Shown here: piece after piece, positions 1 through 22,725 of the stretch
Numbering within the stretch: position 1 is the first letter of the stretch
How the letters are laid out: the number at the start of each line of letters is the position of its first letter
Source: Bacteroidales bacterium
GTDB taxonomy: Bacteria; Bacteroidota; Bacteroidia; Bacteroidales; JAADJA01
DNA length: 64,000 nucleotides
Reading direction: 5' to 3'
NCBI GenBank assembly: GCA_020052415.1
Contig: JAGVPB010000076.1
Coordinates: forward strand, 1 to 64,000
Program-made: the position numbers and the translations under genes
The notes under the pieces: generated by a model
What the model saw: the letters and a program-made list of their open reading frames with translations, nothing else
What the model was told of the DNA's origin: nothing
Databases searched by the model: none

Positions 1-147
1 CTGCTGTAAATTTTCGTCTTTTTGCTTTCATTTTTCCACTGTTAAAATTACTCTTTTTTTATCCTTAACCAGTGGTCGGAATTTTGGGGAGTATTATATA
101 TAGCATTCATATCGCCAACATTTAGGCCACTTTCAATAATCTCCCCC

Positions 148-200
148 AACCGGCGCAAGTCTTGTGTGCCCGCCTTTTGCGCTGTCGACTTGTGCCTTGC
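148..200 (-). repeat. Dispersed intergenic repeat R1, copy A
   Basis: The core is an imperfect inverted repeat with arms GGCGCAAGTC (152-161) and GACTTGTGCC (187-196), one mismatch apart, separated by about 25 bases. Similar copies lie near 598, 733, 1720 and 5797, all in the same orientation. Read on the minus strand this copy is open from about 200 down through the rest of the segment, ending in a stop near 55, so it may be a coding remnant rather than a REP-like hairpin. Confidence 0.6.
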
Positions 201-222
201 TTAGGAACGACTGTTAGGGAAA

Positions 223-326
223 TCAAAGAGTCAAATTGTTTGTGTCCATTGAGTTATTCCAAAATCGTAATAATTCTATTAAATCTTTATCTTTTATCAG
301 GTAAAACAAGGTTATCTGTTTTGTAA
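223..326 (-). pseudogene. RelE/ParE-type toxin, C-terminal remnant
   Basis: Directly downstream of the small antitoxin-like gene, the minus strand holds an open segment of about 33 codons ending in TGA at 223-225. It contains the residues DLIELLRFWNN followed by a few more residues, which resembles the last strand of RelE/ParE/YoeB-type ribonuclease toxins (…RFWHNKQNP). No start codon or N-terminal two-thirds of such a toxin is present, so the gene is a deletion remnant. The family call rests on a short stretch and is tentative. Confidence 0.4.
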
Positions 327-527
327 TCACACATCTTCTGTAGTTTTATATTTCCCATATTTACTTGATTCAAGTGCTTCATCAATAGCATTGTTTTCTG
401 CCCTGGACAAAGAATATTTTGAGTGCTCCATTAATTCAAGCAATTTTCCATAGATGTTTTTTAGCTCTTTTTCTTTCAAATTATCAATCCTTCTAAAAAG
501 GTCGAGCTTAATTTCTGCAACATTCAT
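327..527 (-). CDS. Small antitoxin-like protein (orphan)
   Basis: A 66-residue protein starting at the ATG at 525-527; a longer frame begins at 578, but the residues before this ATG are hydrophobic and unlike the family. It has a helical, charged N-terminus (MNVAEIKLDLFRRIDNL) and the stretch LSRAENNAIDEALESS, typical of short addiction-module components that precede RelE-type toxins in Bacteroidota. The usual C-terminal extension after the EDV residues seems to be missing. The toxin downstream survives only as a tail, so the pair was probably inactivated by one deletion across the gene junction. Whether the protein is still expressed cannot be seen. Confidence 0.5.
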   Translation of the reverse strand: MNVAEIKLDLFRRIDNLKEKELKNIYGKLLELMEHSKYSLSRAENNAIDEALESSKYGKYKTTEDV

Positions 528-597
528 AATTACAATTTTTACTGTTAACAAAAGTACTAATTTCCTGTGCTTGCACATTTCTGTTCGTAAGCCAAAA

Positions 598-637
598 GCT
601 ATTGACTTGTGCCTTGTTTACTCAATCCATTCAATCC
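598..637 (-). repeat. Repeat R1, copy B (partial)
   Basis: It carries the GACTTGTGCC arm at 604-613 followed by TTGTTTACTCAATCCATTC, which matches the flank of copy D (1760-1790) almost base for base. The other arm is degraded. It lies just upstream of the antitoxin-like gene. Confidence 0.45.
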
Positions 638-672
638 ATCTTACTACCGAATAGGTTACAAAATAAATACCT

Positions 673-1634
673 TTAGGATTGTGAAATTTGTATTTTGAAC
701 TCATAAAACAAAAGTAGAAATAATTTAGTTAAACCGGCACAAGTCTGCAAGGCTAAAGCCAAATGCACGAGACTGGCACCAGTTGTAATAAGTGTTTTAT
801 CGTATATGGGTGGTTGCCCTGAAATTTCAATACTTACATCGACTTTTTTAGTATCACCAAATTCTTTAAGCTCTATATTTATGATCCTTTCATTATATGG
901 TGATGGAGCACCATTCCTTTTTATTATAACATTGTCTTCTGCATAATACTGACCAGGTGAAGTAATAATAAATCCTCCCAATTATAGACTGTTACAGTTT
1001 GTGATTTAGAATTTTTATTACTCAGGTTTGTAAATAAATTATAAATATTATGATGTCCTTTTCCTGGGGTTAATACATTATCATTAGTTTCAAAATTGCC
1101 TATAAAAACATCTAGAATTACTTCATAAATACATCTAATTTTATTTTCTTCAAAACTAAAATATAAATTTGATCTTATTCCGTTTATTTTAGACCATGTA
1201 ATTACTTCATATTTATATTTTATATTGAAAAAGCTTGTATCAACATTTTTTTTAAGTTCTATGGAATCATTGGGGTTTAACATAATTTTTAATAACATCA
1301 GGACTCTTTGTTCTTTTGTTAAATCATGTTTATCAAGATCATTGATTAGTAAATTAAAATCTTGAGGGATGGCATATATTTTATTTTCAAAAATACCAAT
1401 TCTTACTTTTTCAATTACAGGTCTTGTTCGGTAAATAAAATCATAATATAATACTTTTTTTTCAAAAAGATTCTTCTTTAAATCAATTAATTGATTATCT
1501 GGAAAGACTTCATTTGCATTAATTATCTGTTTCTCTATAAGATAATTTGAAACATCATCTTTTGAAACCTGCCCGACCCCTGTTAAAGTAAGAGTAAGGC
1601 AAATAGCCATATATATTGAAATTAAATTTTTCAT
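673..1634 (-). pseudogene. Secreted hypothetical protein, frameshifted
   Basis: Two minus-strand frames (924-1634 and 673-981) read as one broken gene. The first part begins at the ATG at 1632-1634 with a signal peptide (MKNLISIYMAICLTLTLTG) and continues as a charged secreted domain of about 210 residues. Near 979-985 the first frame loses sense and the other frame takes over with GGFIITSPGQYYAEDN. One extra base in the AATTGGGAGG tract would join them. The 3' end overlaps repeat R1 copy C and is probably not the original terminus. I do not recognise the family. A sequencing indel, a true frameshift or programmed shifting are all possible; the decayed surroundings favour a real lesion. Confidence 0.5.
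733..784 (-). repeat. Repeat R1, copy C, running into a reading frame
   Basis: The arm GGCACAAGTC is at 736-745 and a degenerate partner arm near 771-780 (GACTGGCACC). On the minus strand it aligns with copies A, D and E. The copy overlaps the 3' end of the frameshifted secreted-protein gene, so the last roughly 30 residues of that frame are repeat-derived. Confidence 0.45.
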
Positions 1635-1719
1635 AAATGTTTATTTTTAAAAGTACTGAATAAATTAAAAATAATAGCACTTATTTCCTTATTAGATTTA
1701 ATTGCTTTTCTAATTCTTC

Positions 1720-1792
1720 CAACCGGCGCAAGTCTTGTGCGTATGCTTTGTGCGCTGTTGACTTGTGCCTTGCTTTCTCAATCCATTCAATC
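1720..1792 (-). repeat. Repeat R1, copy D
   Basis: Arms GGCGCAAGTC (1725-1734) and GACTTGTGCC (1760-1769) are followed by TTGCTTTCTCAATCCATTC, which it shares with copy B. It sits upstream of the frameshifted gene that starts at 1634. On the minus strand it is open in the same frame as copy A and both encode HKSTA-x-K then QDLRRL, which is the main reason to consider a decayed coding origin. Confidence 0.6.
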
Positions 1793-1866
1793 TTAAAAAA
1801 CCGTTTTAAAATTACGAAATTTACAACTGGCCATCATAAGCCAAAAGTAATGATTTTCGACATTTA

Positions 1867-1912
1867 TTCGCGGGGTGACTATTTTGCCCGGCAAACAAGT
1901 CACCCCATGAAT
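1867..1912. repeat. Palindromic repeat R2, left copy
   Basis: Inverted repeat TTCGCGGGGTGACT (1867-1880) / AGTCACCCCATGAA (1899-1912) with two mismatches and an 18-base loop. A nearly identical element lies at 5740-5784. Both are followed by TGTTAAG in the same orientation. The rest of the gap between 1635 and the gene at 2112 holds R1 copy D and otherwise nothing I recognise. Confidence 0.6.
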
Positions 1913-2111
1913 GTTAAGAACAAGCTAAGACAATTTTTTCACTTCCTGATATTTAGCTGGTTGCCCGTGCAACTTTAACAAAGGATGGCGTGTCATAAAA
2001 AAGTATTTATATTTTGTTTAAAAATGTTCGGCAAAGGAGAAATCCTCAAACTAAAACTTATTTCAGATGTTATTGAGTTTTATTCATTTTATTAATTAAT
2101 CAGATATTCTT

Positions 2112-5100
2112 ATGAGAAAATTTAAACTTTTTATTGCCTGGATTTTTGTTAGTATTTTGTTTGCGGGCGCAGCCTTTGCCCAGAAACAGATATATCCTTC
2201 CAAACCCATTAACAACCAAAAAGAAATGGTTGATACAAGGATTGACAATATGGGATTCTGGAGAAAGATGGCGGAAATGGGTCTGGTGAATGTAGCTCCT
2301 GTAACCCAGATACCTGAGGCCGTTTATACCGGAAGCATCATTACAGCTAAAAGTGTTTTGAACGGCAAGGATGACTCACCCGATGTACCGGTTACAAACG
2401 CAACAAACGTAACCGAGTCAGAAAATTCTTCTTTTATTGATCCGACCGATAGCGATTATATACTCAATTCAAACAACTCTACAGCTTGGGTAGGAGGTTC
2501 GGGTGGAAATCTTTATGGTGCCAACCATTTCGAGTCGGAAGATGCCGGCCTTACATGGGGCGGTTCTGCACAGGGCACCGGTGGAACAAACTGGGGAGAT
2601 CCAACCACGGCAATCAACCTCGACGGCACAAGGATGTATGTGGGATTTATTAATACCGCCGGCGGGCAGAATGTTGCCTATTCAACAAATGGAGGTACCA
2701 ACTGGACTTCGGTCACGGTTCATACAGGCTACATTCTTGATAAGAATCATTTGACTATTGATGTCAGTCCGCTAAGTCCTTATGAAGGCTATTTATATGA
2801 TGCCTGGACCAACATGGCAGGAGGCGCAAATTATTACAATATTGAATTAAAGAGAAGCACAAATGAAGGATTAACATGGGGTTCGGTCCTTAATATCAGT
2901 TCCGGTGTTAATGCCGGCAGCCACGATCAGGGGGTAAATATTCAGACAGGCCCCAATGGCGAGGTGTATGCAATCTGGGCGGTTTATGACTCATGGCCAC
3001 AGGATGAAAAAGCAATTGGATTTGCCAAATCAACCAACGGAGGAACCTCCTTTGCAACTGCGGTTAGAATAATCAACAATATCAGAGGGATCAGGAACAC
3101 CGGGGTAGGCAAAAATATGAGGGTAAATTCTTTCCCGTCAATGGCTGTTGATATCAGCAGCGGCTCATACAGCGGTAATATCTATGCAGTATGGACCAAC
3201 ATCGGTGTCCCGGGTGTAAACACTGGTAACAGCGCCGATGTTTATGTGATCAGATCTACAGATGACGGCACTACATGGTCAGCGCCAATAAAAATTAACC
3301 AGGATGCTCCGGGTTTGGGTAAAAAACATTATTTCCCCTGGATCGCGTGTGACCCCGAAACCGGAATCCTGAGTGTGATCTTTTACGATGACCGCAATGT
3401 TAGCAGCAGCCAGTGTGAAGTCTGGTGTGCCAATTCAATGGATGGCGGCGATACGTGGGAAGATTTTAAAGTAAGTGATGTGGCCTTTACACCAACTCCA
3501 ATTCCCGGATTAGCCTCAAGTTATATGGGCGATTATCTTTCGATTTCTGCACGTGGAAGCCAGGTTTATCCGGTTTGGACAGATACAAGGAATGGTCTGT
3601 TTATGACCTATACTTCCCCTTATGTTACCAATAACCTTCCGAAACCCACCGATCTTACGGTTCAGTTGGATGAGATTACAGGAGCAACGACGCTTAACTG
3701 GTTGTTTGACGGTTCGAAGCCATTCTTATATTTCAATGTTTACAGAGATGGGGTTCTTTTAGGTACGACCACTGAACTGACTTATGCAGATATTCTTCCG
3801 GATTTTGGAATTTACACTTACGGAGTTACCGCCGTTCACGATGAGGGCGAATCGGTAGCTTCAAGTGCAACAATACAGTGGGGCAATCCGCATATTTATG
3901 TTACGCCGGTTGCCATCAATACAAACCTCGAAATCGGGGAATCGGAAACAGATACCATTGTTGTTGAGAATATAGGTCAACTGGATCTTATCTATACCGT
4001 TTCACCTCTGATTACAAGTAAAAAAGGCGGAAAAGATTATTGTTCGGCAAGCGGCGGTTGCGATGAATTCATCAGCAATGTCAGCTTTGGCGATATCAAC
4101 AATGCGACAAGCTGTTCCAATTATGCAGATTATACAAACCTTTCCACAACTGTAAGTGCAGGTATGAGTTATCCCATATCAATTACAAACGGAAATACCA
4201 GCTATCCTTCTGACCAGTGCGGTATCTGGATTGACTGGAACCAGGATCAGGATTTCAGCGATGCAGGTGAAAGCATAACTGTTTCAGGTACGCCGGGTAT
4301 TGGACCATATACTGCCAATATTATTCCGCCGGCAAGTGCAATACCCGGAACGACAACATTAAGGGTCAGAATCACTTATACCGGCGCTGTTGATCCATGC
4401 GGTACTACAACTTACGGCGAGGTTGAAGATTACTCGGTAAATGTCCTCGGATGGCTGATGATTGACAATTATGGCGATACACTTGCTTCCGGCGAATCAT
4501 CGGAAATTCATGTTACGCTTGATGCTGCAGATCTCGAAGCCGGTACTTATACCGCCGACATTAATATCGGCTCAAATGATCCTGATCTGGGAATGGTGAC
4601 CGTTCCTGTTACACTGATTGTTGGTGACCTCAGCTTGAATGCAACTGCTTATGCTGATCCTGCTGAAATTTGCGTAGGTGAAAGCTCACAGTTATTTGTT
4701 GATGCCCTTGGAGGTACCTGGAATTATACCTATTCATGGACATCCATTCCTCCGGGATTTACCTCAACTGAGCAGAATCCTTTTGTGACACCTGTGGATA
4801 CTACAATTTACATCGTCGAGGTTAATGACGGAGTTAATACTGTAACTGCCAATACTGAAGTTCAGGTGGGTACTGTACCCGGCACTTGTGGCTTGCCCGC
4901 GGGTGAAACCATGTTTTGTATTGACCCACCCAATTCAACTTACACAACAACAGGAGCGCAATATGCACTATCTTATGTCTGGAGTCTGACCCCTGCCGGA
5001 GCAGGTTCCGTTTCAGGTGGCGGTGTCAACGGTATAGTTAACTGGAATAGTAGTTTCACCGGACAGGCATTTATTAGTGTAAAAGGTGTAAATGAATGTG

Positions 5101-5907: not shown

Positions 5908-7143
5908 CTAATACTCCACCGTCCTAATCACTTCCCGTCTTCTTTTGTATTCCTTCCAGTCGAACTTACGTAAAAATTCGCCGGCTGCAACCGCTCCTCT
6001 TCTGAAAAGGTCAATCTTGTCGTTGTCGGATAATCCGAAATTAAGCCAGTTGTGATCGCCAATCAAAATATGATGAACCAGCATTTCATAATCGGGATTT
6101 TTAAGGATGAAATCATAATCATGAAGATGCCTGAGCGAGTTGAACATGGCGCTGAAAAGGTTTATCGGGCTGTTGATTTTATTGAATTCATTTCTATCAA
6201 CACCTAACCTTACGCCAAAAGTGGGTAAACGGGGAATAGAATTTACCTTATGAAAGATGTCAATCGGGAAATTCGACATAATTCCTCCATCCACAAAATG
6301 AACTTCTGTGGGGAGTTTTCCCCTGAATTTAACCAGTGTATCCCAGTTCGTTATTGCTTCAGGTCCTTGAGGTATATCACTCACAACAAGGGGTGTGAAA
6401 AAGTAAGGCACCGACATTGAAGCCCTGACAAAAACTGCCGGATTTATTTCATCGGGTTTTGTCCAGTACAGTGAACGCATCCGTGGAAATTCCACTTTGG
6501 TTTCAGTTGTAAGATCAGCTGAAATTACTGCAAACCGAGGATTCAAGCCTGCAATATCGCGGTTGACTCCCGCCCTTATTTTCAGGCCGGCAGGAACTTT
6601 GCCGAAACGATCGTAAAGGTCGCGCGTTGTAAAAATATTATTGTCTTTTAATATTTTAGCTAACCAATTGGTAAAATTATCTCCCGGATTCAAACCAAGA
6701 TCCTGTGTAAGATTATCAATAACCTGCATACCTTTCCAGGCTAGTTTTACAATCTTGGCTTTTTCAACAAGGGCATTGATAAAATCCTTTACATCATTGT
6801 CGCCATCTACAAAATCATAAAGGTTTTTATTGGCAAGCGCATGGATAATCTGGTCTGATTTGGGTTTGGAAATATCACCATAAGCGGCCAACAAAAGTGA
6901 ATTGATTGATCCGGCTGAAGTTCCGGCAAGGCTGAAAAACCTGAGTCCCATCTGTTCCAGAACGTAAGTATAGCCGATTAGAGCAACACCCAGTACTCCG
7001 CCGCCTTCCTGGACAAATTCGACATACTGATTATTGTTCTCATCCAGGACATCAGAGAATGCTTTTTTGTCGATCTGGTCTTTCCGAAGCTTGGCAATAA
7101 TTTTCAGCACCTCTGGATTTTGAGTGAAATCGGTAGTTTTCAT
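5908..7143 (-). CDS. Patatin-like phospholipase
   Basis: A 411-residue cytoplasmic serine lipid acyl-hydrolase of the patatin (RssA-like) family. The glycine-rich oxyanion loop is EGGGVLGVALIG (about 46-57), the nucleophile elbow is GTSAGS with Ser76, and the catalytic Asp is in DGG at Asp285 (VHFVDGGIMSNFP). Together these give the Ser-Asp dyad. No signal peptide or membrane segment is seen. Such enzymes cleave acyl chains from phospholipids or related esters; the substrate cannot be told from sequence. It is transcribed alone, convergent with the BNR gene and about 300 bases downstream of the Crp-type regulator gene on the same strand. Confidence 0.9.
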   Translation of the reverse strand: MKTTDFTQNPEVLKIIAKLRKDQIDKKAFSDVLDENNNQYVEFVQEGGGVLGVALIGYTYVLEQMGLRFFSLAGTSAGSINSLLLAAYGDISKPKSDQIIHALANKNLYDFVDGDNDVKDFINALVEKAKIVKLAWKGMQVIDNLTQDLGLNPGDNFTNWLAKILKDNNIFTTRDLYDRFGKVPAGLKIRAGVNRDIAGLNPRFAVISADLTTETKVEFPRMRSLYWTKPDEINPAVFVRASMSVPYFFTPLVVSDIPQGPEAITNWDTLVKFRGKLPTEVHFVDGGIMSNFPIDIFHKVNSIPRLPTFGVRLGVDRNEFNKINSPINLFSAMFNSLRHLHDYDFILKNPDYEMLVHHILIGDHNWLNFGLSDNDKIDLFRRGAVAAGEFLRKFDWKEYKRRREVIRTVEY

Positions 7144-7324
7144 AGTTTTTGAAATTTTTTAGTTATTATTTATAGGGTCGTTATAAAGTTAAGTCCTGTA
7201 AAGATAAGAAAATAACCATTTCATCCTGGAAATGTTTTGGACTGCCTGAATTATTGTTGGAGAATGGAGTGAAAATATCCAAGAAAAAGGATTAAACAAA
7301 TTCCCGCAGACAGAAACTTGATTT

Positions 7325-8029
7325 TTATCCGAGCCTGCTGATCATTTGCAGCTTCGACTTATCGAGAATGGTCAGGTTTTTGCCATCGGTACGAATTACA
7401 TTGTCATCGTTGAGATGGCTGAAAGTATGTATGATATTTTCTTTGGAACATCCTGCAAATTCGGCTATTTCCTTACGGGTTAGCAAAAGGTGAAAGCTCT
7501 GGTTTTTATAAACATGCTCCGATAGATAAAGAAGAATATCAGCGATCCTCCCATTTACATTCTTGTTGGCAAGGCTTATATAGTTGAGGATCGAGGTTTC
7601 GAACATCTCCATTGCACGCTCAAAAAGCATAAGTGCATATTTGCCATTTTGCTTGAGAATTTCACCGAATTCATTCATGTCAATCATGCAGATGTCACAG
7701 TCGCCAATGGCCGTGATGGAAAAAAGATTGCGCTGACGGTAGAACATATTGGCACCGCCAAGAATTTTGGGTGCCGAAACAATGCTGAGAATGAGATTCC
7801 GTTCCTTATTTTCTTCGAAGTTGAATTTAACGATCCCGTGATTGAGTAAGGCTATGTGGCGGGATTTATCCCCCTGCTTGAAAATGGTTTCCCCGTGTTT
7901 GAATTTAAGCTGATAAATGTTCTTCTCAAGGTGGTGAATATCCTTTTCACTAAGGAATAAACTCGACTGCTTATAAAACAGGCACTGTGAACACAAAGTC
8001 AAATCCTTGATTTCTGATTGATCCTTCAT
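7325..8029 (-). CDS. Crp/Fnr-family transcriptional regulator
   Basis: A 234-residue regulator with an N-terminal cyclic-nucleotide-binding-type beta-barrel (about 25-140, with the turn KHGETIFKQGDKS) and a C-terminal winged helix of the Crp type (about 155-225, recognition region RKEIAEFAGCSKENIIHTFS). A CxxC pair sits at the N-terminus (Cys13, Cys16) and further cysteines follow near 107-110. This could fit redox or Fe-S sensing, but the exact FNR four-cysteine spacing is not present. It is divergent from the hdr-like operon at 8205, sharing a gap of about 175 bases, so control of that operon is the natural inference. Confidence 0.85.
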   Translation of the reverse strand: MKDQSEIKDLTLCSQCLFYKQSSLFLSEKDIHHLEKNIYQLKFKHGETIFKQGDKSRHIALLNHGIVKFNFEENKERNLILSIVSAPKILGGANMFYRQRNLFSITAIGDCDICMIDMNEFGEILKQNGKYALMLFERAMEMFETSILNYISLANKNVNGRIADILLYLSEHVYKNQSFHLLLTRKEIAEFAGCSKENIIHTFSHLNDDNVIRTDGKNLTILDKSKLQMISRLG

Positions 8030-8131
8030 GAACGATTATTTTTCAATCCCAAAAGTGAAATATTTCATCTTTATATGTTGAGAATTCCAACCCTGTCTCT
8101 TCTTAAAATGATGAATATGAAAGTATTTTCG

Positions 8132-8139
8132 CAAAAGTA
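8132..8139 (-). promoter_or_regulatory. -7 promoter element of the Crp/Fnr gene
   Basis: On the minus strand TACTTTTG matches the Bacteroidetes -7 consensus TAnnTTTG exactly. No convincing TTTG lies 19-21 bases upstream. It would give a leader of roughly 95 bases before the ATG at 8029. Confidence 0.45.
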
Positions 8140-8204
8140 AATAAATATAGCAAACAAAAGGATTTGACATTAAACAGGAAATCTATCATTGAGTAAAAAC
8201 TGTT

Positions 8205-8918
8205 ATGGGGGAATTGTACGAAAAACTACAAGGGGATGTGAGATTCAGGGAAGGACTGAAAGCCTGTATCAATTGCGGTACCTGTACAGCAATATGCCCT
8301 GCAGCCGAATTTTATAATTATGAACCACGCGCCATCATTGATATTATTCAGTTAAAGGATGATAACCGGATCATAGAACTGCTGAAAGGTGATGAAATCT
8401 GGTATTGCGCTGAATGCATGTCGTGCAAAACCCGCTGTCCGAGGGGAAATGCTCCCGGACTTGTTATCATTGCCCTGCGTTCGCTTTCACAGGAGACAGG
8501 CTATTTTATCGAATCCGAAAAAGGACGCCAGCAGCTCGCTTTAAAACGGATGATCGGTGAAACCATTCTCGAAAAAGGATATTGTGTTCATGCCTCTCAT
8601 ATTGACCTTGAGCGATTCCCTGAACAGGGTCCGGTTTGGCAATGGGTTCATGATAATTTACCTGAAGTAATGGAGAGGGTTGGGGGAAATTATGAAGGCA
8701 ACGGACCTGGAATCTTAAGAAAAATGAGTTACGAAGCTATGGAAGAACTGCACAGGATCTTTGAGGTTACAGGAGGAATGGAAAGATTCAAAAAAATAGA
8801 ACGCTATTCAAGAGTTAAAGCAAGGGAGGAAGGGGTTGAATTCACAGGAAAGGGTGTTGACGAAGGATATTATAAAAAGGTATATACTGAAAACAACCAA
8901 AAACACACAAAAGAATGA
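8205..8918 (+). CDS. HdrC-like iron-sulfur protein
   Basis: A 237-residue soluble ferredoxin-like subunit related to heterodisulfide reductase subunit C. It has two classical [4Fe-4S] motifs: Cys21-x2-Cys24-x2-Cys27-x3-Cys31 followed by Pro, and Cys68-x2-Cys71-x2-Cys74-x3-Cys78 followed by Pro. The role would be to relay electrons between the HdrA-like flavin and the HdrB-like subunit. It is the first gene of a tight operon, and its 3' end overlaps the next start by four bases (ATGA). The start is the ATG of MGELYEKLQG; no strong ribosome-binding site is seen. The C-terminal 100 residues are helical and have no further metal motif. Confidence 0.85.
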   Translation: MGELYEKLQGDVRFREGLKACINCGTCTAICPAAEFYNYEPRAIIDIIQLKDDNRIIELLKGDEIWYCAECMSCKTRCPRGNAPGLVIIALRSLSQETGYFIESEKGRQQLALKRMIGETILEKGYCVHASHIDLERFPEQGPVWQWVHDNLPEVMERVGGNYEGNGPGILRKMSYEAMEELHRIFEVTGGMERFKKIERYSRVKAREEGVEFTGKGVDEGYYKKVYTENNQKHTKE

Positions 8919-9988
8919 TCATTGAAGGGAAAAAGACAGTCTGGTCACAATATCAGAAAAATATCGCCGGCGATCATTATTTTTATATCCGGAGTTGTAT
9001 CCGGCAGAATCTTTTTCCGGGGTCGGAAACAGCTTTTATGAGGATCATGCAACAAGAACTGGGTAAAGATATTTTTGAAGATGCCAACCATACAACGTGC
9101 ACCGGAATTGGTTATCATACCGATATAGTTCCTATTGAAACCACCATGACGGTTGTAGCCCGTCTTTTTGCCCTGATGACGGAAAGGGGTTACGAAAACA
9201 TGATCACTTCCTGCATTACAAGTTTTGGAGTATTATCCGAAATCCTTGAAACCTGGAAAGAATTTCCCGAAACGGAAGCCCGAACACGCGATTTTCTGAA
9301 AAAAGCCACAGGCAGGGAGTTCAAAGTGCCGAAAGACATGGCTCATGCCAGCGACATTATTTACAAATTCAGAAAGGAGATCGGTGAAAAAGGCATAAGA
9401 AAACTGATCAATGCAAAGACCGGGGAAAAGCTTCGGGTGGTGGAACATATCGGTTGCCATTATTCGAAAATGTTTCCGCAAAAGGGAGTTGGCGGAGCAG
9501 AATTTCCTTACGTTCTTATCGGTATGATCGAGGACTGGGGCGGCGAGGTTGTGGATTACCCTGAGCGCAGGCATTGCTGCGGGTTCGGGTTCAGACAATA
9601 TTTTATAAAAGCAAACCGGGGATTTTCAATCGCCTGTTCCAAAAAGAAATTCGAGTCAATGAAGCCTTTCAAACCAGATTTCATTATTACGAATTGTCCG
9701 GGCTGCAACTATTTTTTAGATCGCTGGCAGTATGTAATAAGCGAAATGGAGGGCAAAACATACGGCGAAGATCAGAATGGAATTCCGGTTCTGACTTATG
9801 AGGAAGTAGCCGGTTTGGTTCTTGGGTATGATCCATGGGATCTGGGAATGCAGATGCACCAGGTTGGTGTTGAGCCGCTACTTGACAAAATGGGTGTGGA
9901 ATTTGACCCTGCTAAAAAATTTCTTGGCAAGAATGGAAATTCACTGGGAGTTCCCGAAAAACCAAATGTATTGAACTTCTGTTGCTGA
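8915..9988 (+). CDS. HdrB-like CCG-domain protein
   Basis: A 357-residue subunit related to heterodisulfide reductase subunit B, which in methanogens carries two non-cubane [4Fe-4S] clusters in two CCG domains. The C-terminal domain is complete: Cys181, the pair Cys221-Cys222-Gly, and Cys261-x2-Cys264. The N-terminal domain keeps only single cysteines (Cys28, Cys62 in TTCTGIG, Cys100), so one cluster site is degenerate. This suggests a changed or lost second active-site cluster and a substrate other than CoM-S-S-CoB. It overlaps the HdrC gene by four bases and is followed three bases later by the HdrA-like gene, so the three are probably translated together. Confidence 0.85.
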   Translation: MIIEGKKTVWSQYQKNIAGDHYFYIRSCIRQNLFPGSETAFMRIMQQELGKDIFEDANHTTCTGIGYHTDIVPIETTMTVVARLFALMTERGYENMITSCITSFGVLSEILETWKEFPETEARTRDFLKKATGREFKVPKDMAHASDIIYKFRKEIGEKGIRKLINAKTGEKLRVVEHIGCHYSKMFPQKGVGGAEFPYVLIGMIEDWGGEVVDYPERRHCCGFGFRQYFIKANRGFSIACSKKKFESMKPFKPDFIITNCPGCNYFLDRWQYVISEMEGKTYGEDQNGIPVLTYEEVAGLVLGYDPWDLGMQMHQVGVEPLLDKMGVEFDPAKKFLGKNGNSLGVPEKPNVLNFCC

Positions 9989-9991
9989 CAA

Positions 9992-11020
9992 ATGAAAAAA
10001 CATGTTTTTATTATCGGAGGCGGAGTCGCCGGGGCAGAGGCCGCTTCACAGCTTGTGAAAATGGGATTTGATGTAACCCTTGCAGAAAAAGAAACTCAGA
10101 TCGGAGGTAAACTGAATCAATGGGACAGATTGTTCCCATCAAAACGAAAAGCTGCAGAAGTTCTGGATTTCATTAACAAAAACCTCGTTGATTCAAAGGC
10201 AAGGGTTCTATTCAATACAGAAATCTCCAAAATCAGCAAGCAAAATGGTGGTTATAAAATATATGCTGGTATAGAAGAATGTACTGCCGATGCCATTCTC
10301 ATTTCAACCGGCTATGATGTTTTCAACGCCAGGATCAAAGAGGAATACGGGTATGGCATTTATGAAAATGTGATCACTTCCGTTGATCTCGAAGAAATGT
10401 TCAGAAATGGCAACAAAATCTTTAATTCGAATAAGGAAGAACCCAAAAGGATTGGATTCGTGCATTGTGTCGGATCGCGTGATGAAAAAGTCGGAAACCA
10501 CTATTGCTCGCAGGTTTGTTGTGTAACTGCCGTAAAACAGGCAATGGAAGTAAAGGAAATTTTACCCCGCGCTGAAGTTTATTGCTTTTACATGGACCTG
10601 CGTATGTTCGGTTTGCAGTTCGAAGACCTGTACAGGGAGTCGCAGGAAAAGTGGGGAGTAAATTTTATACGTGGAAGGGTTTCGGAAGCGGCAGAGAATA
10701 TTGACGGAACCATTCTCATTAAAGTGGAAGATACCCTTGCAGGACGGCCGCTTAAAATGAAAGTAGATTTGCTTGTTCTCATGGTCGGATTCGTACCCTC
10801 GGCCGGAACAACAGAAATCGGTAAAATGCTGAACCTGGATCTTACTCCCGAAAACTTCCTGAAACCGGCCGATGAACATCTTGACACATCTTCAACAAAT
10901 CTGAAAGGGGTTTTTATTGCCGGCACCTGCAAGTCGCCGAAAACCATTGCTGATACCTTTGCCGATGCACGGGCTGCAACGCTTAAAATTAAAGAATTTC
11001 TGGAAGGTTCTGAAAAGTAA
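9992..11020 (+). CDS. HdrA-like FAD oxidoreductase (short form)
   Basis: A 342-residue flavoprotein. The N-terminal dinucleotide-binding motif is IIGGGVAGAEAA (about residues 6-17), followed by an Asp/Glu-ended second strand. In the middle lies the HdrA hallmark CVGSRDEKVGNHYCSQVCC, which in HdrA ligates a [4Fe-4S] cluster beside FAD. A C-terminal FAD motif (GVFIAGTCKSPKTIADTFADA) closes the fold. Methanogen HdrA is about twice as long because it has extra ferredoxin domains, which this protein lacks. In size it is closer to QmoA. It may therefore relay electrons linearly rather than bifurcate them. It is third in the operon, three bases after the HdrB-like gene. Confidence 0.85.
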   Translation: MKKHVFIIGGGVAGAEAASQLVKMGFDVTLAEKETQIGGKLNQWDRLFPSKRKAAEVLDFINKNLVDSKARVLFNTEISKISKQNGGYKIYAGIEECTADAILISTGYDVFNARIKEEYGYGIYENVITSVDLEEMFRNGNKIFNSNKEEPKRIGFVHCVGSRDEKVGNHYCSQVCCVTAVKQAMEVKEILPRAEVYCFYMDLRMFGLQFEDLYRESQEKWGVNFIRGRVSEAAENIDGTILIKVEDTLAGRPLKMKVDLLVLMVGFVPSAGTTEIGKMLNLDLTPENFLKPADEHLDTSSTNLKGVFIAGTCKSPKTIADTFADARAATLKIKEFLEGSEK

Positions 11021-11031
11021 AAAAGTCACCT

Positions 11032-11385
11032 ATGAACCAGGATTGGGGATACGGCATCAATAAAGACCGGCAGATTGATTTCGACCGCAATGACCGAAGG
11101 CTTGCTGAGTATATCAGAAAATATGTGCCTTCGTACAAGCTCTGCATTTCGTGCGGAGCCTGTACAGCTACCTGCAGTACAGCTAACCTTACCGATTTTT
11201 ATAACATCCGCAGGCTGAATATCTTTTTGATGAGAGGCGAAATTGATGAAATTGCAAAACACATTGACAAATGCATGTTTTGCGGCAAGTGCGAACTGGT
11301 TTGCCCGAGAGGCGTCAATACACGGCAGGTGATTTTGATCATGAAGGAGGGTATTAAAAAAATAAAGCAAAATGAACAGCTTTGA
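11032..11385 (+). CDS. Second HdrC-like ferredoxin subunit
   Basis: A 117-residue protein with two [4Fe-4S] motifs: CISCGACTATCS near residues 38-48 and CMFCGKCELVCP near residues 83-94. The second ends in the usual Pro, while the first has Ser in that place. It is a minimal HdrC, shorter than the one at 8205, and overlaps the following membrane-protein gene by 14 bases. Placement directly before the membrane subunit suggests that it links the soluble Hdr module to the membrane module. The start ATG follows a short AAAGTCACCT leader. Confidence 0.8.
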   Translation: MNQDWGYGINKDRQIDFDRNDRRLAEYIRKYVPSYKLCISCGACTATCSTANLTDFYNIRRLNIFLMRGEIDEIAKHIDKCMFCGKCELVCPRGVNTRQVILIMKEGIKKIKQNEQL

Positions 11386-13186
11386 TATTTTCGTGCTTCC
11401 ATTTGCAATCGGGCTTTACACGCTGTTAATTGTCTTTTTTGCGAAAGTTTTCGACTGGATCAAGCATTTACCGGTCGGGGATCGCAGGAAGATCGGCAGG
11501 GGAATCCGAAGCAGGAAATTATTTGGTGTTGTTAAGGAAATCTTTCTCGAAAGCCTTATCCATAGAAGGATTTTTAAAGTCAACCCGCTTCTCGGCTATA
11601 TGCACATGAGCCTTGCTTTCGGCTGGTTCCTGCTGATTGTTTTGGGCGCTGCTGAATCCAAAATCTATGGACGTGACCTCTTGAATACTCCCTGGGACCC
11701 GATATTTTTCAAATATTTCAAGCACGACACCAATGAATTCCATTCGGCTTTTTTCAATTTTACCATGGACTTTCTGCTGTTATTTGTCCTTTCAGGGGTA
11801 TTTTTAGCTTACCTGAAGCGGATCTATGCCAGATTATTCGGACTTAAAAAAACCACCAAACATATTTTCTTCGACAGGCTCGCAATAATTTCGCTCTGGC
11901 TGATTTTCCCGCTAAGGCTACTTGCCGAGAGCCTCACTTCGGGTATTTATCATAACGGCGGATTTCTCACCGACGGACTGGGAAGTTTTTTAGCCGGATT
12001 CATGCCGGTGGGTCATCTTGAATACACCGCTTGGTGGCTGTACTCATTGTCGGTGGGAGCCTTTTTTGTCGCTTTGCCCTATTCGCGCTATATGCATATT
12101 CCCACCGAAATTCTTCTGATCGCTATGCGCAGGTTCGGGATAAAAACCACAACAACTTTTACGAATTTTTCGCAGATCGAAGTTTACTCTTGTCCGAGGT
12201 GCGGTATCTGCATTGATAAATGCCAGATGACCAGCGCCCTGGGTAATGAAAAACCCGCTTCTGTTTATTTTCTGAACACCATCCGTGCGCAAAAAGTGAA
12301 GCCAGGTCTTTCATTTGATTGCATGATTTGCGGCAGGTGCGAGCAATACTGCCCGGTCGGGATCAGTTTGATGAATCATCGGCTGGTTCAGCGAAACAAA
12401 CTCATCAGCAACGGATATAATTTTCAGTTCCTTAAAAACGGAATTCCTGAAAAAGCCAGGATTGCTTATTATGCAGGCTGTATGACACATCTTACTCCCT
12501 CAATTGAAAAAGCAATGATTAAAATCTTAGAAAAGGCAGGAACCGACTTTGTATTTATTGACAAAGACGGTGGTGCATGTTGCGGGAGGCCTATGATGTT
12601 ATCCGGAAATTTTGAGGGGGCTGAAAAGTTGATCGAATTCAACAGAAATAACATCCTGAAATCATGTGCGGATATTCTGGTTACCTCCTGTGCCATCTGC
12701 TACAAGGTGTTTAAGAGCAATTATGATTTACCGCTCAAAGTGCTGCATCATTCCGAATTCATTCTTGAATTGGTAAAATCAGGCAAGATCAATATCAATA
12801 AATCTGGCCTGCGGGCTGTTTATCACGATCCGTGCGAGTTGGGCAGAGGCAGTAAAGTATATGAAGAGCCTCGTGAATTGCTCAGCCATGCTTTGGAACT
12901 TGTTAGCACGGGCTATGACCGGGAGAATGCCCTTTGTTGTGGCGGAAGCCTCGGTAACATTATGCTGGGCTATGAAGAAAAAAATAAAATCAATGCTGCT
13001 GTGTGGAAAGAAATGATGGTAAATGATCCGGAAATGCTTGTAACAGCTTGCCCGTTATGCAAAAAGACCTTCAATAAAAATGCTCCTGTTCCTGTCAGGG
13101 ATATTGCTGAAATCATTGCTGATGCTGTTCAGATATCTCCTGTAAAGCCAAATCACCAGCTGGCTCCGGAGCAGATCGCCGGATAA
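11372..13186 (+). CDS. Membrane HdrDE/EMO-like iron-sulfur oxidoreductase
   Basis: A 604-residue fusion. Residues 1-250 have about five or six membrane helices with histidines, as in NarI-like b-type cytochrome subunits. Two [4Fe-4S] motifs follow (Cys274-277-280-284 and Cys317-320-323-327). Two complete CCG domains come next: Cys370, Cys403-404-Gly, Cys440/443, and Cys488, Cys522-523-Gly, Cys560/563. This is the domain order of the DUF224-type ETF:menaquinone oxidoreductases (EMO) of syntrophic fatty-acid degraders and of fused HdrE-HdrD. The expected role is electron transfer between a soluble donor and menaquinone in the inner membrane. It ends the operon. No ETF genes are in the window, so the donor may be the HdrABC-like proteins or an ETF coded elsewhere. 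Confidence 0.85.
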   Translation: MNSFDIFVLPFAIGLYTLLIVFFAKVFDWIKHLPVGDRRKIGRGIRSRKLFGVVKEIFLESLIHRRIFKVNPLLGYMHMSLAFGWFLLIVLGAAESKIYGRDLLNTPWDPIFFKYFKHDTNEFHSAFFNFTMDFLLLFVLSGVFLAYLKRIYARLFGLKKTTKHIFFDRLAIISLWLIFPLRLLAESLTSGIYHNGGFLTDGLGSFLAGFMPVGHLEYTAWWLYSLSVGAFFVALPYSRYMHIPTEILLIAMRRFGIKTTTTFTNFSQIEVYSCPRCGICIDKCQMTSALGNEKPASVYFLNTIRAQKVKPGLSFDCMICGRCEQYCPVGISLMNHRLVQRNKLISNGYNFQFLKNGIPEKARIAYYAGCMTHLTPSIEKAMIKILEKAGTDFVFIDKDGGACCGRPMMLSGNFEGAEKLIEFNRNNILKSCADILVTSCAICYKVFKSNYDLPLKVLHHSEFILELVKSGKININKSGLRAVYHDPCELGRGSKVYEEPRELLSHALELVSTGYDRENALCCGGSLGNIMLGYEEKNKINAAVWKEMMVNDPEMLVTACPLCKKTFNKNAPVPVRDIAEIIADAVQISPVKPNHQLAPEQIAG

Positions 13187-13246
13187 TTTTAGTCAAACTC
13201 ATCTTCCTTAAACTCAATTTAAATTATCGGATTTCCGGTCAATTTA

Positions 13247-13277
13247 TTTGTTCCTTTTCCTAATTTATTTAGTTTTG
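13247..13277 (+). promoter_or_regulatory. Promoter of the CoA-transferase operon
   Basis: TTTG at 13247-13250, 19 bases, then TAGTTTTG at 13270-13277: a full match to the Bacteroidetes primary-sigma consensus TTTG-N19-TAnnTTTG. The predicted start is near 13284, leaving a leader of about 30 bases before the ATG. It separates the CoA-transferase genes from the Hdr-like operon transcriptionally. Confidence 0.75.
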
Positions 13278-13315
13278 ACATTGGAAATAATTGAAAAAAT
13301 TAAATCAGCATTTTT

Positions 13316-14290
13316 ATGAGTCAAAACAAGAGTATCCCCATTTTTGAAGAAGGCGAAGCGTCGCTGATCCAGCCCATTGACCTGGACGGCTTTCGCGAGC
13401 ACAACAGGAAGAAAACCAAAAAGCTCATTGACAAAACGATAACCGAAAAAGAAGCCATTGACAAATATGTTAAAAATGGTGATTACGTCGGCTTTGAACT
13501 TTACGGAACAGTTCGTTGCCCGATGAGCCTGACCCGAGAGCTTGTACGTTCCGGGAAAACTGATTTCCGTATCGTGGGACAGGGAGTCCATGAGCTCGAC
13601 CTGATGTTTGCCGCGAACATGGTGAGGGAAATTGATTTTACCTATATCAGTCTTGAGGTTTATGGAATCTCCGACAATATGCGCCGCCGTGTTGAATCAG
13701 GAGATGTAACGAAGATAGTAGAGTGGTCGAACGCTGCCATTACCTGGCGGTTCAAGGCGGCCAGCATGGGGATTCCTTTCATTCCCACCCGCAGCATGCT
13801 CGGAACCGATACATTGAAAAAATCATCAGCCAAAGTCATTGAATGTCCCTTTACACACCAGAAAATCGCCCTTCTTCCTGCATTGTTTGTTGATGTCGGG
13901 TTTATTCATGTGAACCGGGCCGACATTCACGGCAATTGCCAGATTGATGGCATCAGCGGTTTTGCGTTCGAAATGTCAAGAGCCTGCAAAAATCTGATTA
14001 TAAGTACTGAAAAGATTGTTCCTACCGATGAGATCAGGGAGCATCCCGACAGGACGATCATTCCCTATTACCTCGTTGATGCTGTTATTCATGCACCTTA
14101 TGGCTCCTGGCCGGGTGAAATGGCAGGAATGTATGAAAGGGACGAGCCCCATTACAAGATGTTCGTCGAAAAGCAAAAGACAAAGGAAGGCATGGACGAA
14201 TACATGAAAGAGTGGATTTATGACCTTTCCGATCACCAGTCTTTGATTGACAAGGTAGGGAAAAAACGATTACAGGAATTAACACTTTAG
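13316..14290 (+). CDS. Family I CoA-transferase, alpha subunit (GctA-like)
   Basis: A 324-residue subunit resembling glutaconate CoA-transferase subunit A. Features include an early glycine-poor CoA-binding region (NGDYVGFELYGTVRCPMSLT), the stretch GVHELDLMFA, and the family-typical LFVDVGFIHVNRADIHGNCQIDG. It pairs with the downstream beta subunit, which carries the catalytic Glu. Family I enzymes move CoA between an acyl-CoA and a free carboxylic acid; the substrate is not readable from sequence. Given the leucine/isovalerate genes nearby, a branched-chain or dicarboxylic acid is plausible, but this is inference. The start is the ATG of MSQNKSIPIF, about 39 bases after the promoter -7 box. 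Confidence 0.85.
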   Translation: MSQNKSIPIFEEGEASLIQPIDLDGFREHNRKKTKKLIDKTITEKEAIDKYVKNGDYVGFELYGTVRCPMSLTRELVRSGKTDFRIVGQGVHELDLMFAANMVREIDFTYISLEVYGISDNMRRRVESGDVTKIVEWSNAAITWRFKAASMGIPFIPTRSMLGTDTLKKSSAKVIECPFTHQKIALLPALFVDVGFIHVNRADIHGNCQIDGISGFAFEMSRACKNLIISTEKIVPTDEIREHPDRTIIPYYLVDAVIHAPYGSWPGEMAGMYERDEPHYKMFVEKQKTKEGMDEYMKEWIYDLSDHQSLIDKVGKKRLQELTL

Positions 14291-14301
14291 GAGGATCAAT
14301 T

Positions 14302-15066
14302 ATGACACAGCAATATTCACCTTCGGAATTATTGATTTGCCTTGCTTCCCGCGTGATGGAAGACGGCACTACGGCTTTTATCGGAACCGGAATTCCGATG
14401 CTGGCAGCCAGTCTGGCACAAGCCATGCATGCACCCAACCTGGTTCCCATCTTTGAGTTTGGCGGAACCGGAGCTATCCTGGAAAAGCTTCCTCTTGCTG
14501 TTGGAGACATGAGGACTTACAATAAAGCCCTTGCTGCTTCAGGAATTTGCGATGTGATGGAAACCGCCCAGCGCGGATTTGTCGAATTTGGTTTCCTCGG
14601 TGGAGCGCAGATTGACAAGTACGGTAACCTGAATTCAACGGTTATCGGCAACCATGCGCATCCGAAAGTCAGGTTGCCCGGAAGCGGTGGCGCCAATGAT
14701 GTGGGTTCAGCCTGCTGGCGTACAATTGCCATTATGATCCACGACAAGAGAAGATTCATGGAGAAGATAGACTTTATCACCACACCCGGATTTCTGTCGG
14801 GACCCGGAGCACGGGAAGAAGCCGGATTGCCAAGAGGCACTGGACCTTACAGGGTAGTCACTAACCTATGCGTAATGGGCTATGATGATATAACCAAATG
14901 CATGAAATTACTCAGCCTGAACCCCGGCGTAACCATCGAAAAAGTAATTGAAAGTTCGGGGTTTGAATTGCTCTTTGCCGAAAACATAACTCATAACGAG
15001 CCTCCGACTGATGGAGAATTAAGGATACTAAGGGAGAAGGTGGACCCGGATGGGCTGTACAGGTAA
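14302..15066 (+). CDS. Family I CoA-transferase, beta subunit (GctB-like)
   Basis: A 254-residue partner of the preceding subunit. The conserved start of the family is seen (EDGTTAFIGTGIPMLAASLAQ). Glu52 in PIFEFGGTG is the likely catalytic residue that forms the glutamyl-CoA thioester. A glycine-rich oxyanion stretch (GFLGGAQIDKYGNLN) and GSGGANDVGS follow. The gene starts 11 bases after the alpha subunit and has a clear Shine-Dalgarno sequence, TAGGAGG, about seven bases before the ATG. This is unusual in Bacteroidota and suggests strong translation to keep the subunits balanced. A short heptanucleotide repeat begins five bases after the stop. Confidence 0.85.
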   Translation: MTQQYSPSELLICLASRVMEDGTTAFIGTGIPMLAASLAQAMHAPNLVPIFEFGGTGAILEKLPLAVGDMRTYNKALAASGICDVMETAQRGFVEFGFLGGAQIDKYGNLNSTVIGNHAHPKVRLPGSGGANDVGSACWRTIAIMIHDKRRFMEKIDFITTPGFLSGPGAREEAGLPRGTGPYRVVTNLCVMGYDDITKCMKLLSLNPGVTIEKVIESSGFELLFAENITHNEPPTDGELRILREKVDPDGLYR

Positions 15067-18881: not shown

Positions 18882-19886
18882 TCACCCCTTCATGTGCTTC
18901 GGTATCCTCCCATTCCTGATGGCTTCTGAGCGGAGCCCGCGTCCAACGATGCGCTCTACCATTTTCCCTATTTCGAGAACTTTATCCACATCCAGGCCGG
19001 TATCAATACCCATTTCATCCATCATCACCACCATGTCCTCGGTATTTACAAGCCCGACAGTCATTGGATCTTTGTAGTAATACTCTCCGGTTCCGCTAAC
19101 CGGAACTCCATCCACAAAATTAGCCGGCTGGCCTCCGATGCCGCCCATGGTGGATTCGAAATTCGTCATGCCTGCTTGTAATGCAGCCAGTACATTGGCA
19201 ATACCCCAGCCACGGGTGGTATGAAAATGAGCAATTTGTTTATGGGGATTGTCAACACTTTCGAGGAGCATAGTGAAGTATTTGTAAACCCTGTCGGGAG
19301 ATGCTGAACCATCATGATCGGCATGCTCTACATCGGTAGCGCCGATATCGAACCAGCGTTTTGTAAATTCAATGGCCTTCTTCATATCCGTAGGCCCTTC
19401 GATCGGACAACCCCAGATGGTGCTGACGGTTCCGTTCACGTTTAATCCTGCATCACGGGCTTTCTTAACCCATTCTTCACTCATCTTCCAGTAATCCGCA
19501 AGCGATAAACCTGAGTTTGTTTTATGATGGGATTCGCTGGTTGAAACCATAAGTAAAATCCTGTCCGGACCCCAGCCTTCCTGTTTGGCCTGAATCGCAC
19601 GTTCAATGGCTTTTTCGCGGATGGTGACCGCTGTCAACCTGACATCTTTCATCAGGTGACTTATCTTTTTACTGTCTCTGATCAGTTTAAAAAGGGTAAC
19701 GGCATCTTTGAACTGAGGCATGCCTTTCGGGTTACCAAAATTAGTCACTTCGATATGTCTGAAACCAGCCAGGATCAATTGTTCTGCAACCCAAAGCTTG
19801 GCTTCGGTAGGTATAAATTTTTCTTCATGCTGAAATCCATCCCTGACAGTGATGTCGCCGATAGTTACTTTTTTTGGGTAATTCAT
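18882..19886 (-). CDS. HMG-CoA lyase-like enzyme (DRE-TIM barrel)
   Basis: A 334-residue TIM-barrel lyase. The N-terminal ITVRDGFQHEE holds Arg15-Asp16, matching the catalytic Arg and metal-binding Asp of the family. HFHTTRG (His220, His222) is the second metal site. The expected reaction is HMG-CoA to acetyl-CoA plus acetoacetate, the last step of leucine breakdown. The loop that carries the catalytic cysteine in vertebrate and many bacterial HMG-CoA lyases reads GGIGGQPA here, with Gln253 in the cysteine position. This may be a subfamily that works without it or with a related substrate. It is the last gene of the minus-strand cluster, starting three bases after the HepT stop codon. Confidence 0.75.
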   Translation of the reverse strand: MNYPKKVTIGDITVRDGFQHEEKFIPTEAKLWVAEQLILAGFRHIEVTNFGNPKGMPQFKDAVTLFKLIRDSKKISHLMKDVRLTAVTIREKAIERAIQAKQEGWGPDRILLMVSTSESHHKTNSGLSLADYWKMSEEWVKKARDAGLNVNGTVSTIWGCPIEGPTDMKKAIEFTKRWFDIGATDVEHADHDGSASPDRVYKYFTMLLESVDNPHKQIAHFHTTRGWGIANVLAALQAGMTNFESTMGGIGGQPANFVDGVPVSGTGEYYYKDPMTVGLVNTEDMVVMMDEMGIDTGLDVDKVLEIGKMVERIVGRGLRSEAIRNGRIPKHMKG

Positions 19887-19889
19887 ACT

Positions 19890-20249
19890 TTATTTCAATT
19901 GTTTCTTTTCGACACTAATAATTTCATTGATTTTAATAAGATTATCGGGAAGATACTCAGTTACAATTCTCCAAATGATTTTATAGTCAACTCCAAAATA
20001 CTCATGAGTGACCCTGTTTCTAAGCCTGTACATTTCTGACCATGGTGTTTGAGGGTACTTAGCTTTGAATTCGGTTGGCAATTTTTTTGTAGCTTCTCCA
20101 ATGATTACGAAATTTCTGATCACTGCATCAATCGTCTTGAAATCTTTTCTGAAAACATCAAAAGTCATATCCCCGATATATTCCTGAATACGGGACATTG
20201 ATTCCTGGATATCTTCCAGAAACAATATATAGTTTCTTACCTTAGTCAA
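19890..20249 (-). CDS. hepT: HepT-like HEPN toxin (DUF86)
   Basis: A 119-residue HEPN ribonuclease of the HepT/DUF86 group. The active-site motif R-x4-H-x-Y is intact as Arg77-NRVT-His82-E-Tyr84. Related toxins cut tRNA or other RNA and are silenced by the partner MntA through AMP transfer to the tyrosine. The start overlaps the end of the nucleotidyltransferase gene by eight bases. Its stop lies three bases before the HMG-CoA lyase start, so the metabolic gene may depend on readthrough from this toxin gene. Confidence 0.85.
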   Translation of the reverse strand: MTKVRNYILFLEDIQESMSRIQEYIGDMTFDVFRKDFKTIDAVIRNFVIIGEATKKLPTEFKAKYPQTPWSEMYRLRNRVTHEYFGVDYKIIWRIVTEYLPDNLIKINEIISVEKKQLK

Positions 20250-20535
20250 TATATATTACCTGGTTTAAAATAGCATCACGCATCTGATCCCTAATCGCTG
20301 ATTTAGTGACTAAATCAATTTTTCTGTTAAAGATAGCTTCAAGATACTCTTCGAGAGTAAAAAAATCCCATCCCGGAGTTTTTGAAAATTCTACCAGGAT
20401 ATCAATATCACTGTTTGTCTTTTGGCTATTTTCTGCAAATGATCCGAAATATCCGATTTGACTTATTTGAAACCTATCTTTCAAATAAGGTTTTATTTCC
20501 TTAAGTTTTTTTTCGACTGTTTCAGATGTCAACAT
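20242..20535 (-). CDS. mntA: MntA-like nucleotidyltransferase antitoxin
   Basis: A 97-residue minimal nucleotidyltransferase with the catalytic pattern Gly31-Ser32-x10-Asp43-x-Asp45 (YFGSFAENSQKTNSDIDILVEF without its last two residues is the core). It is the first gene of the MntA-HepT pair and overlaps it by eight bases. It begins about 30 bases downstream of the acetoacetyl-CoA synthetase stop, inside the leucine cluster. The expected role is to AMPylate and silence HepT. Confidence 0.85.
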   Translation of the reverse strand: MLTSETVEKKLKEIKPYLKDRFQISQIGYFGSFAENSQKTNSDIDILVEFSKTPGWDFFTLEEYLEAIFNRKIDLVTKSAIRDQMRDAILNQVIYID

Positions 20536-20565
20536 AAAAAAATTATAATTACAAGCGCTTCAAAG

Positions 20566-22503: not shown

Positions 22504-22725
22504 ATTCGATAAACCGGCTTCTGGAAATTAATATTTAATTCTTAATGGATTTCTCATCTCATTGTCAGTAACATCAGGTATAACATTCAAAGACTCCGGA
22601 TGGTTCATTTAACCTTAACCAATAAGGCACCTTAAAAAACGAAAGAAATGAAACTGAAAAATCCGGTGTACAGTCACTACAGGTACGGTTGAACCGGTAA
22701 ATACTAAAACCGGAAGCTAAATCAT

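Follow-up and report, generated by a model that had tools for sequence, protein, structure and literature searches.

Positions 8205-13186 of a 64,000-nucleotide (nt) stretch of a Bacteroidales genome (contig JAGVPB010000076.1 of assembly GCA_020052415.1, positions 1 to 64,000; the whole stretch is referred to here as the window) were found to hold a cassette of five genes which probably encode one membrane-anchored, menaquinone-linked oxidoreductase of sHdr-type build, working independently of acyl-CoA oxidation. The evidence lies in the composition and gene order of the cassette, in the conservation of its metal ligands and in the similarity of its folds to those of known proteins. Assembly as one complex, heme content, the use of quinone and the direction of electron transfer are proposed from homology to EtfD and to heterodisulfide reductase (Hdr). 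The genes of the cassette are:

8205..8918, + strand: HdrC1-like subunit, 237 amino acids (aa), with two [4Fe-4S] sites and an extra invariant Cys127 (Pfam/NCBIfam)
8915..9988, + strand: HdrB1-like subunit, 357 aa, N-terminal CCG domain degenerate, C-terminal CCG domain complete (Pfam/NCBIfam)
9992..11020, + strand: HdrA-like flavoprotein, short form, 342 aa, with an FAD domain and one [4Fe-4S] site
11032..11385, + strand: HdrC2-like ferredoxin subunit, 117 aa, with two [4Fe-4S] sites
11372..13186, + strand: membrane subunit, named DE here, 604 aa, with a cytochrome-b-type N-terminus, two [4Fe-4S] sites and two complete CCG domains

An earlier note on this DNA, made from the sequence alone, had described five overlapping or closely spaced genes, and all five open reading frames were recovered at these coordinates. 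The HdrC1 and HdrB genes overlap by 4 nt and those of HdrC2 and DE by 14 nt, the remaining gaps being no longer than 11 nt. Pfam and NCBIfam searches agree with the assignments made then, namely two ferredoxin subunits (both of dicluster type), a CCG protein similar to HdrB, an HdrA-like flavoprotein and a membrane protein with two [4Fe-4S] sites (a Fer4 dicluster) and two CCG domains. Among the matches listed, none of the five proteins reached a curated NCBIfam cut-off, which places all of them outside the named families. As had also been remarked, no hydrogenase or MvhD gene adjoins the cassette.

The complete five-gene set was found on a single strand in 83 of 86 non-redundant Bacteroidales loci (those with at least 4.2 kb of upstream sequence), and the metal-binding Cys and His residues are invariant in 100–120 orthologues; the five genes are therefore a conserved unit and not a chance arrangement. 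An alternative gene order, C1-C2-DE-B-A, was seen in some loci. At a limit of E ≤ 1e-40 an orthologue of DE (40–53% identical) was detected in 108 of the 344 sampled Bacteroidales genomes and in 71 of 194 genera. DE was absent from the 394 remaining genomes of a sample drawn across the phylum, searched at the stricter limit of 1e-60, and HdrB was likewise absent outside the order in that sample (limit 1e-40). Carriers include Odoribacter sp. Z80, O. lunatus, Marinilabilia salmonicolor and Plebeiobacterium sediminum, together with metagenome-assembled genomes of Butyricimonas, Prolixibacteraceae, Salinivirgaceae and Lentimicrobium, and their habitats are mostly anoxic or gut.

Conserved residues and fold of the subunits

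In the soluble subunits the cluster ligands are kept throughout the orthologues compared. HdrC1 has eight invariant cluster Cys in addition to C127 (102 orthologues), the four cluster Cys of HdrA (C159, C172, C176, and C177) are invariant in 114 orthologues and the eight Cys of HdrC2 in 108. HdrB1 was found to possess one complete and one altered CCG site. The C-terminal set is complete (C181, C221, C222, C261, and C264), while the N-terminal site retains C28, C62, and C100 with the equivalents of C42 and C81 replaced (101 orthologues); in the same 101 sequences an invariant serine, S103, stands where methanogen HdrB has its bridging Cys81. Since the pattern of replacement is invariant across orthologues, the altered N-terminal site is read as a conserved design.

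The membrane subunit DE carries eight invariant ferredoxin Cys and two CCG sets (C370/C403/C404/C440/C443 and C488/C522/C523/C560/C563), all five Cys of each being kept in 120 of 120 sequences. Cytochrome-b-like helices had been claimed for this protein, and the N-terminus of its AlphaFold2 model (mean predicted local distance difference test score 83.8) indeed consists of long, bundled helices, for which VIA-align gives NarI as a match (Z about 9). Three His residues of the membrane part, H64, H78, and H242, are invariant; H78 and H242 are likely heme ligands, as they align with positions which are His in all EtfD-like proteins and ETF:menaquinone oxidoreductases (EMO). The best structural match of the model is EtfD, over 550 residues (Z 26.0, root-mean-square deviation 4.7), in keeping with the domain order of a DUF224-type EMO that had been recognized in the sequence. 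Menaquinone is a plausible membrane partner, given this domain order, common to EMO and HdrDE, and the conserved cytochrome-b-type histidines.

The CCG part of the model matches LutA and HdrB. Placement of the protein within the DsrMK or the GlpC/LutA families, which would have spoken against the earlier reading, was not seen, as DE scores far below the NCBIfam cut-offs for DsrK (70.6 vs. 400 bits), TmcB (45.5 vs. 735), HmcF (34.9 vs. 750), GlpC (76.3 vs. 278), GlcF (44 vs. 333) and LdhH (88.5 vs. 800). The best-scoring model for its CCG module is TfrB, a subunit of coenzyme M/coenzyme B (CoM/CoB) thiol:fumarate reductase, also far below cut-off (112.7 vs. 385 bits). The qmoC model (cut-off 300 bits) matched the ferredoxin subunits only, at 46.5 bits or less, DE not being among the matches listed.

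Likeness to sHdr-type complexes and proposed electron path

By gene order and sequence, the closest relative of the cassette is a C1-B1-A-C2-B2 operon on a plasmid of Picosynechococcus sp. PCC 7003 (NZ_CP016476.1, 185219-190959), with identities of 46% for C1, 42% for B1, 44% for A, and 37% for C2. The two have in common the short HdrA, the order of the first four subunits and the start of HdrC2, GI(N/K)KDRQ(I/V)DxDR. The degenerate N-terminal CCG of HdrB1 is found in the Picosynechococcus B1 and also in an A. ferrooxidans plasmid protein. They differ in the last gene, as the Picosynechococcus operon ends with a soluble HdrB2 of 290 aa, after which comes an SQR-III-like flavoprotein, whereas the Bacteroidales cassette ends with the 604-aa fusion of membrane cytochrome b, ferredoxin and CCG domains. 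Judging by these comparisons, the soluble two-CCG HdrB2 is replaced by DE in the Bacteroidales. Within the 19-kb stretch retrieved for the Picosynechococcus operon (locus L181, operon at 8242-13982), no lipoate-binding protein gene is annotated.

The link to sHdr-type complexes is an addition to what the earlier note had proposed. HdrA (342 aa) corresponds to no more than the middle of the 643–671-aa HdrA chains and has none of the additional ferredoxin domains seen in methanogen HdrA. Its alignment with 6tjr (349 aa), which we take to be the sHdrA of Hyphomicrobium, extends from one end to the other, and the C1-B1-A core with a short HdrA is an sHdr feature present in the cassette. The gene order of type I sHdr clusters is C1B1A-H-C2B2 (PMC6067878, PMC11582611) and that of type II is C1B1A-H-B3 with EtfAB (PMC11582611); genes for LbpA accompany every sHdr cluster (PMC6067878).

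In the proposed mechanism, a soluble arm of C1, B1 and A would be connected by the relay subunit C2 to a terminal two-CCG subunit, which is a fusion of cytochrome b, a diferredoxin and two CCG domains. A cytoplasmic donor would deliver its electrons to the flavin of HdrA or to a thiol/sulfur site, for which the intact CCG of B1 and the paired CCG sites of DE are the candidates. From there the path would lead over the [4Fe-4S] clusters in C1, in C2 and in DE to heme b and then to menaquinone, or it would run in reverse.

Several observations weigh against a quinone-linked, sHdr-type oxidoreductase. In a comparison of 40 cassette-bearing and 40 cassette-free genomes, in which the absence of ETF or menaquinone markers was judged by hidden Markov model searches of draft genomes, menaquinone pathway markers, which would favor a quinone link, were found in 38 of the carriers, the other two lacking both markers. 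As they are equally common without the cassette (36/40), these markers do not discriminate and are only compatible with a quinone link. The complete CCG pairs do not prove thiol chemistry, since such pairs occur in GlpC-type proteins too. The H gene, which lies between A and C2 in sHdr clusters, is absent from the cassette, as are LbpA and lipoate ligases, and genes for LbpA or lipoate maturation, which were looked for as neighbors only, do not recur in 110 cassette loci. The soluble-arm comparison covered one cyanobacterial operon and 6tjr, and the score of HdrA with 6tjr (193 bits) does not exceed its score with methanogen HdrA (236 bits), so that a special sHdr kinship rests on the architecture and on that one operon.

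Genomic setting of the cassette

Around the cassette the window contains the following features:

7325..8029, - strand: Crp/Fnr-family regulator, divergent from the cassette (Pfam/NCBIfam)
13316-15066, + strand: two-subunit CoA-transferase-family protein (PF01144 twice), 129 nt downstream of DE
18882-30376, - strand: predicted leucine/isovalerate degradation cluster, beginning 5.7 kb past DE

No constant outside neighbor was found among the 110 loci, the commonest being a two-component pair (10/110) and clade-specific housekeeping genes. The cassette is therefore taken to be self-contained and the adjoining leucine genes to be incidental; with no recurrence beside the cassette in these loci, both the leucine cluster and the CoA-transferase were rejected as functional partners. 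The cluster is likely one for leucine/isovalerate degradation on its predicted content, namely HMG-CoA lyase-like, acetoacetate-CoA ligase, acyl-CoA dehydrogenase, biotin carboxylase, enoyl-CoA hydratase, and carboxyltransferase genes, and one gene for a protein with a type IX secretion system tail sits inside it. The CoA-transferase pair, which has weak similarity only to the 3-oxoacid CoA-transferases of NCBIfam, could be a transferase or a decarboxylase or hydrolase with the same fold.

The Crp/Fnr gene is a possible candidate for the regulator of the five-gene operon; a homologue occurs at the same position in only 3 of the 110 loci. Its product carries CxxC motifs near residues 13–16 and 110–113 and is possibly of a redox- or iron-sulfur-sensing type. 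The two-component pair found beside the cassette elsewhere is of NarL type (L042, L049, L051, L065, L088, L112, L131, L139, L153, and L158); its closest NCBIfam models are MctS/MctR, under cut-off, and it is another possible regulator. A promoter scan gave no more matches than shuffled sequences, and terminator-like matches were about 1.2 standard deviations above shuffles.

Four congeners of the window genome (G460, G563, G655, and G721) are without DE at E ≤ 1e-40, and EMO is present in three of them (G460, G563, and G655). As a check for contamination, the 4-mer composition of the cassette was compared with the genome (0.914, other contigs 0.79–0.93); since it fits that of the other contigs, the cassette contig looks native. 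The cassette has probably been patchily lost or horizontally gained within the genus.

Related redox genes were seen at two further loci. In L070 (G418), the cassette is immediately preceded, at positions 1-4134, by genes for HdrA-like, HdrA2-like (657 aa) and QmoC-like proteins, which make up a Qmo-like trio in this Bacteroidales genome. In L082 (G000:C46), positions 6674-9880 hold a pair resembling HmcE/HmcF (DsrMK-like) that reaches none of the cut-offs; a cysteine desulfurase/selenocysteine-lyase-like gene comes next.

Alternative electron donors and comparison with known systems

As the substrate, thiol/disulfide or sulfane-sulfur chemistry is ranked first, at somewhat less than an even chance; ferredoxin comes second as a tentative candidate, and ETF last. 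In its thiol form, the complex would be a dithiol:menaquinone oxidoreductase or a menaquinol:disulfide reductase which, by analogy with HdrDE, uses the paired CCG sites of DE to act on a low-molecular-weight thiol or on that of a protein, a disulfide being the other electron source suggested by the earlier note. This is a possible but doubtful assignment. It would account for the full retention of both Cys sets, where EtfD has lost the catalytic coordination, and TfrB, the nearest model for the CCG module, belongs to a thiol enzyme. However, a CoM/CoB pathway is not expected in Bacteroidales, two CCG motifs are likewise found in GlpC, which is no disulfide reductase, and thiol-metabolism genes do not recur near the cassette in the 110 loci.

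A ferredoxin:menaquinone oxidoreductase, in which HdrA and C1 would oxidize the ferredoxin of 2-oxoacid oxidoreductases and DE would pass the electrons to menaquinone as an alternative to Rnf, is about as tentative. The unit has no dedicated dehydrogenase or hydrogenase, which fits a general soluble carrier, and it is found in anaerobes without cytochrome bd, this oxidase missing from 14 of the 40 cassette genomes. Genes for 2-oxoacid:ferredoxin oxidoreductase lie a few genes from the cassette in L055, L057, and L070, but three loci from about two families are a weak linkage, and the additional ferredoxin domains that bifurcating HdrA carries are missing from this HdrA. Rnf shows no pattern of replacement (35/40 with the cassette, 33/40 without), and cytochrome bd no association with the cassette. 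Neither for replacement of Rnf or of cytochrome bd nor for dependence on menaquinone biosynthesis did the 40 vs. 40 genomes give a discriminating pattern.

A true sulfur-oxidizing sHdr, converting sulfane sulfur to sulfite with menaquinone as the acceptor, is improbable. The order C1-B1-A-C2 followed by a two-CCG protein is that of type I sHdr, and the Picosynechococcus operon of the same order precedes an SQR-III-like gene; on the other hand, the H gene and a soluble B2 are absent, LbpA-type and lipoate-maturation genes are not recurrent neighbors as they would be beside sHdr clusters (PMC6067878), and the carriers are mostly anoxic or gut Bacteroidales.

Acyl-CoA oxidation had been suggested by the earlier note as one source of the electrons, DE being an EMO to which an HdrCBA arm is added, with electrons of acyl-CoA dehydrogenases (as in leucine degradation) passing to menaquinone. 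While menaquinone stands as a plausible acceptor, this source does not. Apart from the EMO/EtfD domain order and the structural match to EtfD, it is favored by the acyl-CoA dehydrogenase in the leucine-degradation cluster 5.7 kb away, by locus G687, an exception among the 110, where the cassette has an EMO gene (open in two pieces) on one side and an etfBA/acyl-CoA-dehydrogenase cluster on the other, and by the 24 of 40 cassette genomes which have ETF and no recognized EMO. A search for etfAB, however, located an ETF-menaquinone branch of the genome's own on contig C8 (L080, 6122-12326), with FabK/NMO-like, acyl-CoA dehydrogenase, etfB and etfA genes and a convergent gene for a 695-aa EMO. In a phylogenetic tree DE and EMO form separate groups (each 100/100), EMO clustering with plasmid-borne EtfD-like proteins (98/92 and 99/99), which puts DE outside the EMO/EtfD clade. 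In EtfD the CCG clusters are non-catalytic, with His583 at the D2 site next to CCG1 and the CCG1 cysteines lost (PMC13083937); the D2 residue is Ile in 26 of 26 DE and His in 10 of 10 EMO/EtfD-like proteins, and the CCG1 cysteines, degraded in EMO, are complete in all DE. Three of the 40 cassette genomes, all near-complete, have no ETF, EMO is missing from 27 of the 40 and is no commoner with the cassette than without it (13/40 vs. 20/40, p = 0.17), and no etf, leucine-degradation or CoA-transferase gene recurs beside the cassette in the 110 loci. Linkage to ETF and acyl-CoA oxidation was therefore rejected on co-occurrence, tree and residue diagnostics, leaving it very unlikely. In many Bacteroidales the match to EMO is divided into pieces of about 440 and 270 aa, the break falling between the ferredoxin part and the CCG part and the pieces sometimes lying on separate open frames; these are either natural gene splits or frameshifts.

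About a third of the sampled Bacteroidales genomes thus carry a conserved, predicted five-subunit redox complex which is unnamed in the literature found; no description of the cassette was met in the open literature searched, most subscription journals lying outside its coverage. If menaquinone-linked, it would let electrons into or out of the respiratory chain at a point so far overlooked, in anaerobes living in sediments, digesters, rumen and gut. It also provides a defined case in which to ask whether a quinone-linked anchor with complete CCG pairs carries out thiol chemistry or serves only as a wire.

Compared with known systems, DE has in common with EtfD/EMO (M. smegmatis EtfD, PDB 9ojn, PMC13083937) the fold over its whole length, the positions of the heme-ligand His, and two [4Fe-4S] and two CCG-type domains in one chain; it differs in the Ile in place of the invariant His, the complete CCG1, its own phylogenetic group, its four soluble partner genes and the lack of dependence on ETF. 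QmoABC likewise couples HdrA- and HdrC-type parts to a membrane cytochrome b and menaquinone, but QmoC is without CCG domains, of which DE has two. HdrDE of cytochrome-containing methanogens combines a b-type cytochrome with a two-CCG protein, both CCG motifs complete, whereas DE is one chain and comes with C2 and an HdrC1-B1-A arm. In contrast to bifurcating HdrABC-MvhD, the cassette has neither a long HdrA nor MvhD. With sHdr types I and II it has in common the modular C1-B1-A core followed by C2 and a two-CCG module, without the H gene, the soluble B2 or B3 and EtfAB. The cassette lacks features by which EMO (residues, tree, ETF dependence) and sHdr (H, soluble B2, linked LbpA) are defined, yet it has architecture in common with both. 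Speculatively, it could be a third, membrane-anchored sHdr-like kind specific to anaerobic Bacteroidales (Odoribacter and other gut lineages), exchanging electrons between thiol, disulfide or sulfane-sulfur carriers and menaquinone via paired noncubane clusters; if so, a thiol or sulfur enzyme would take part in respiration where no such enzyme is known. The exchange of HdrB2 for a cytochrome-b fusion joins two lines of Hdr evolution, that of sHdr and that of HdrDE/EMO.

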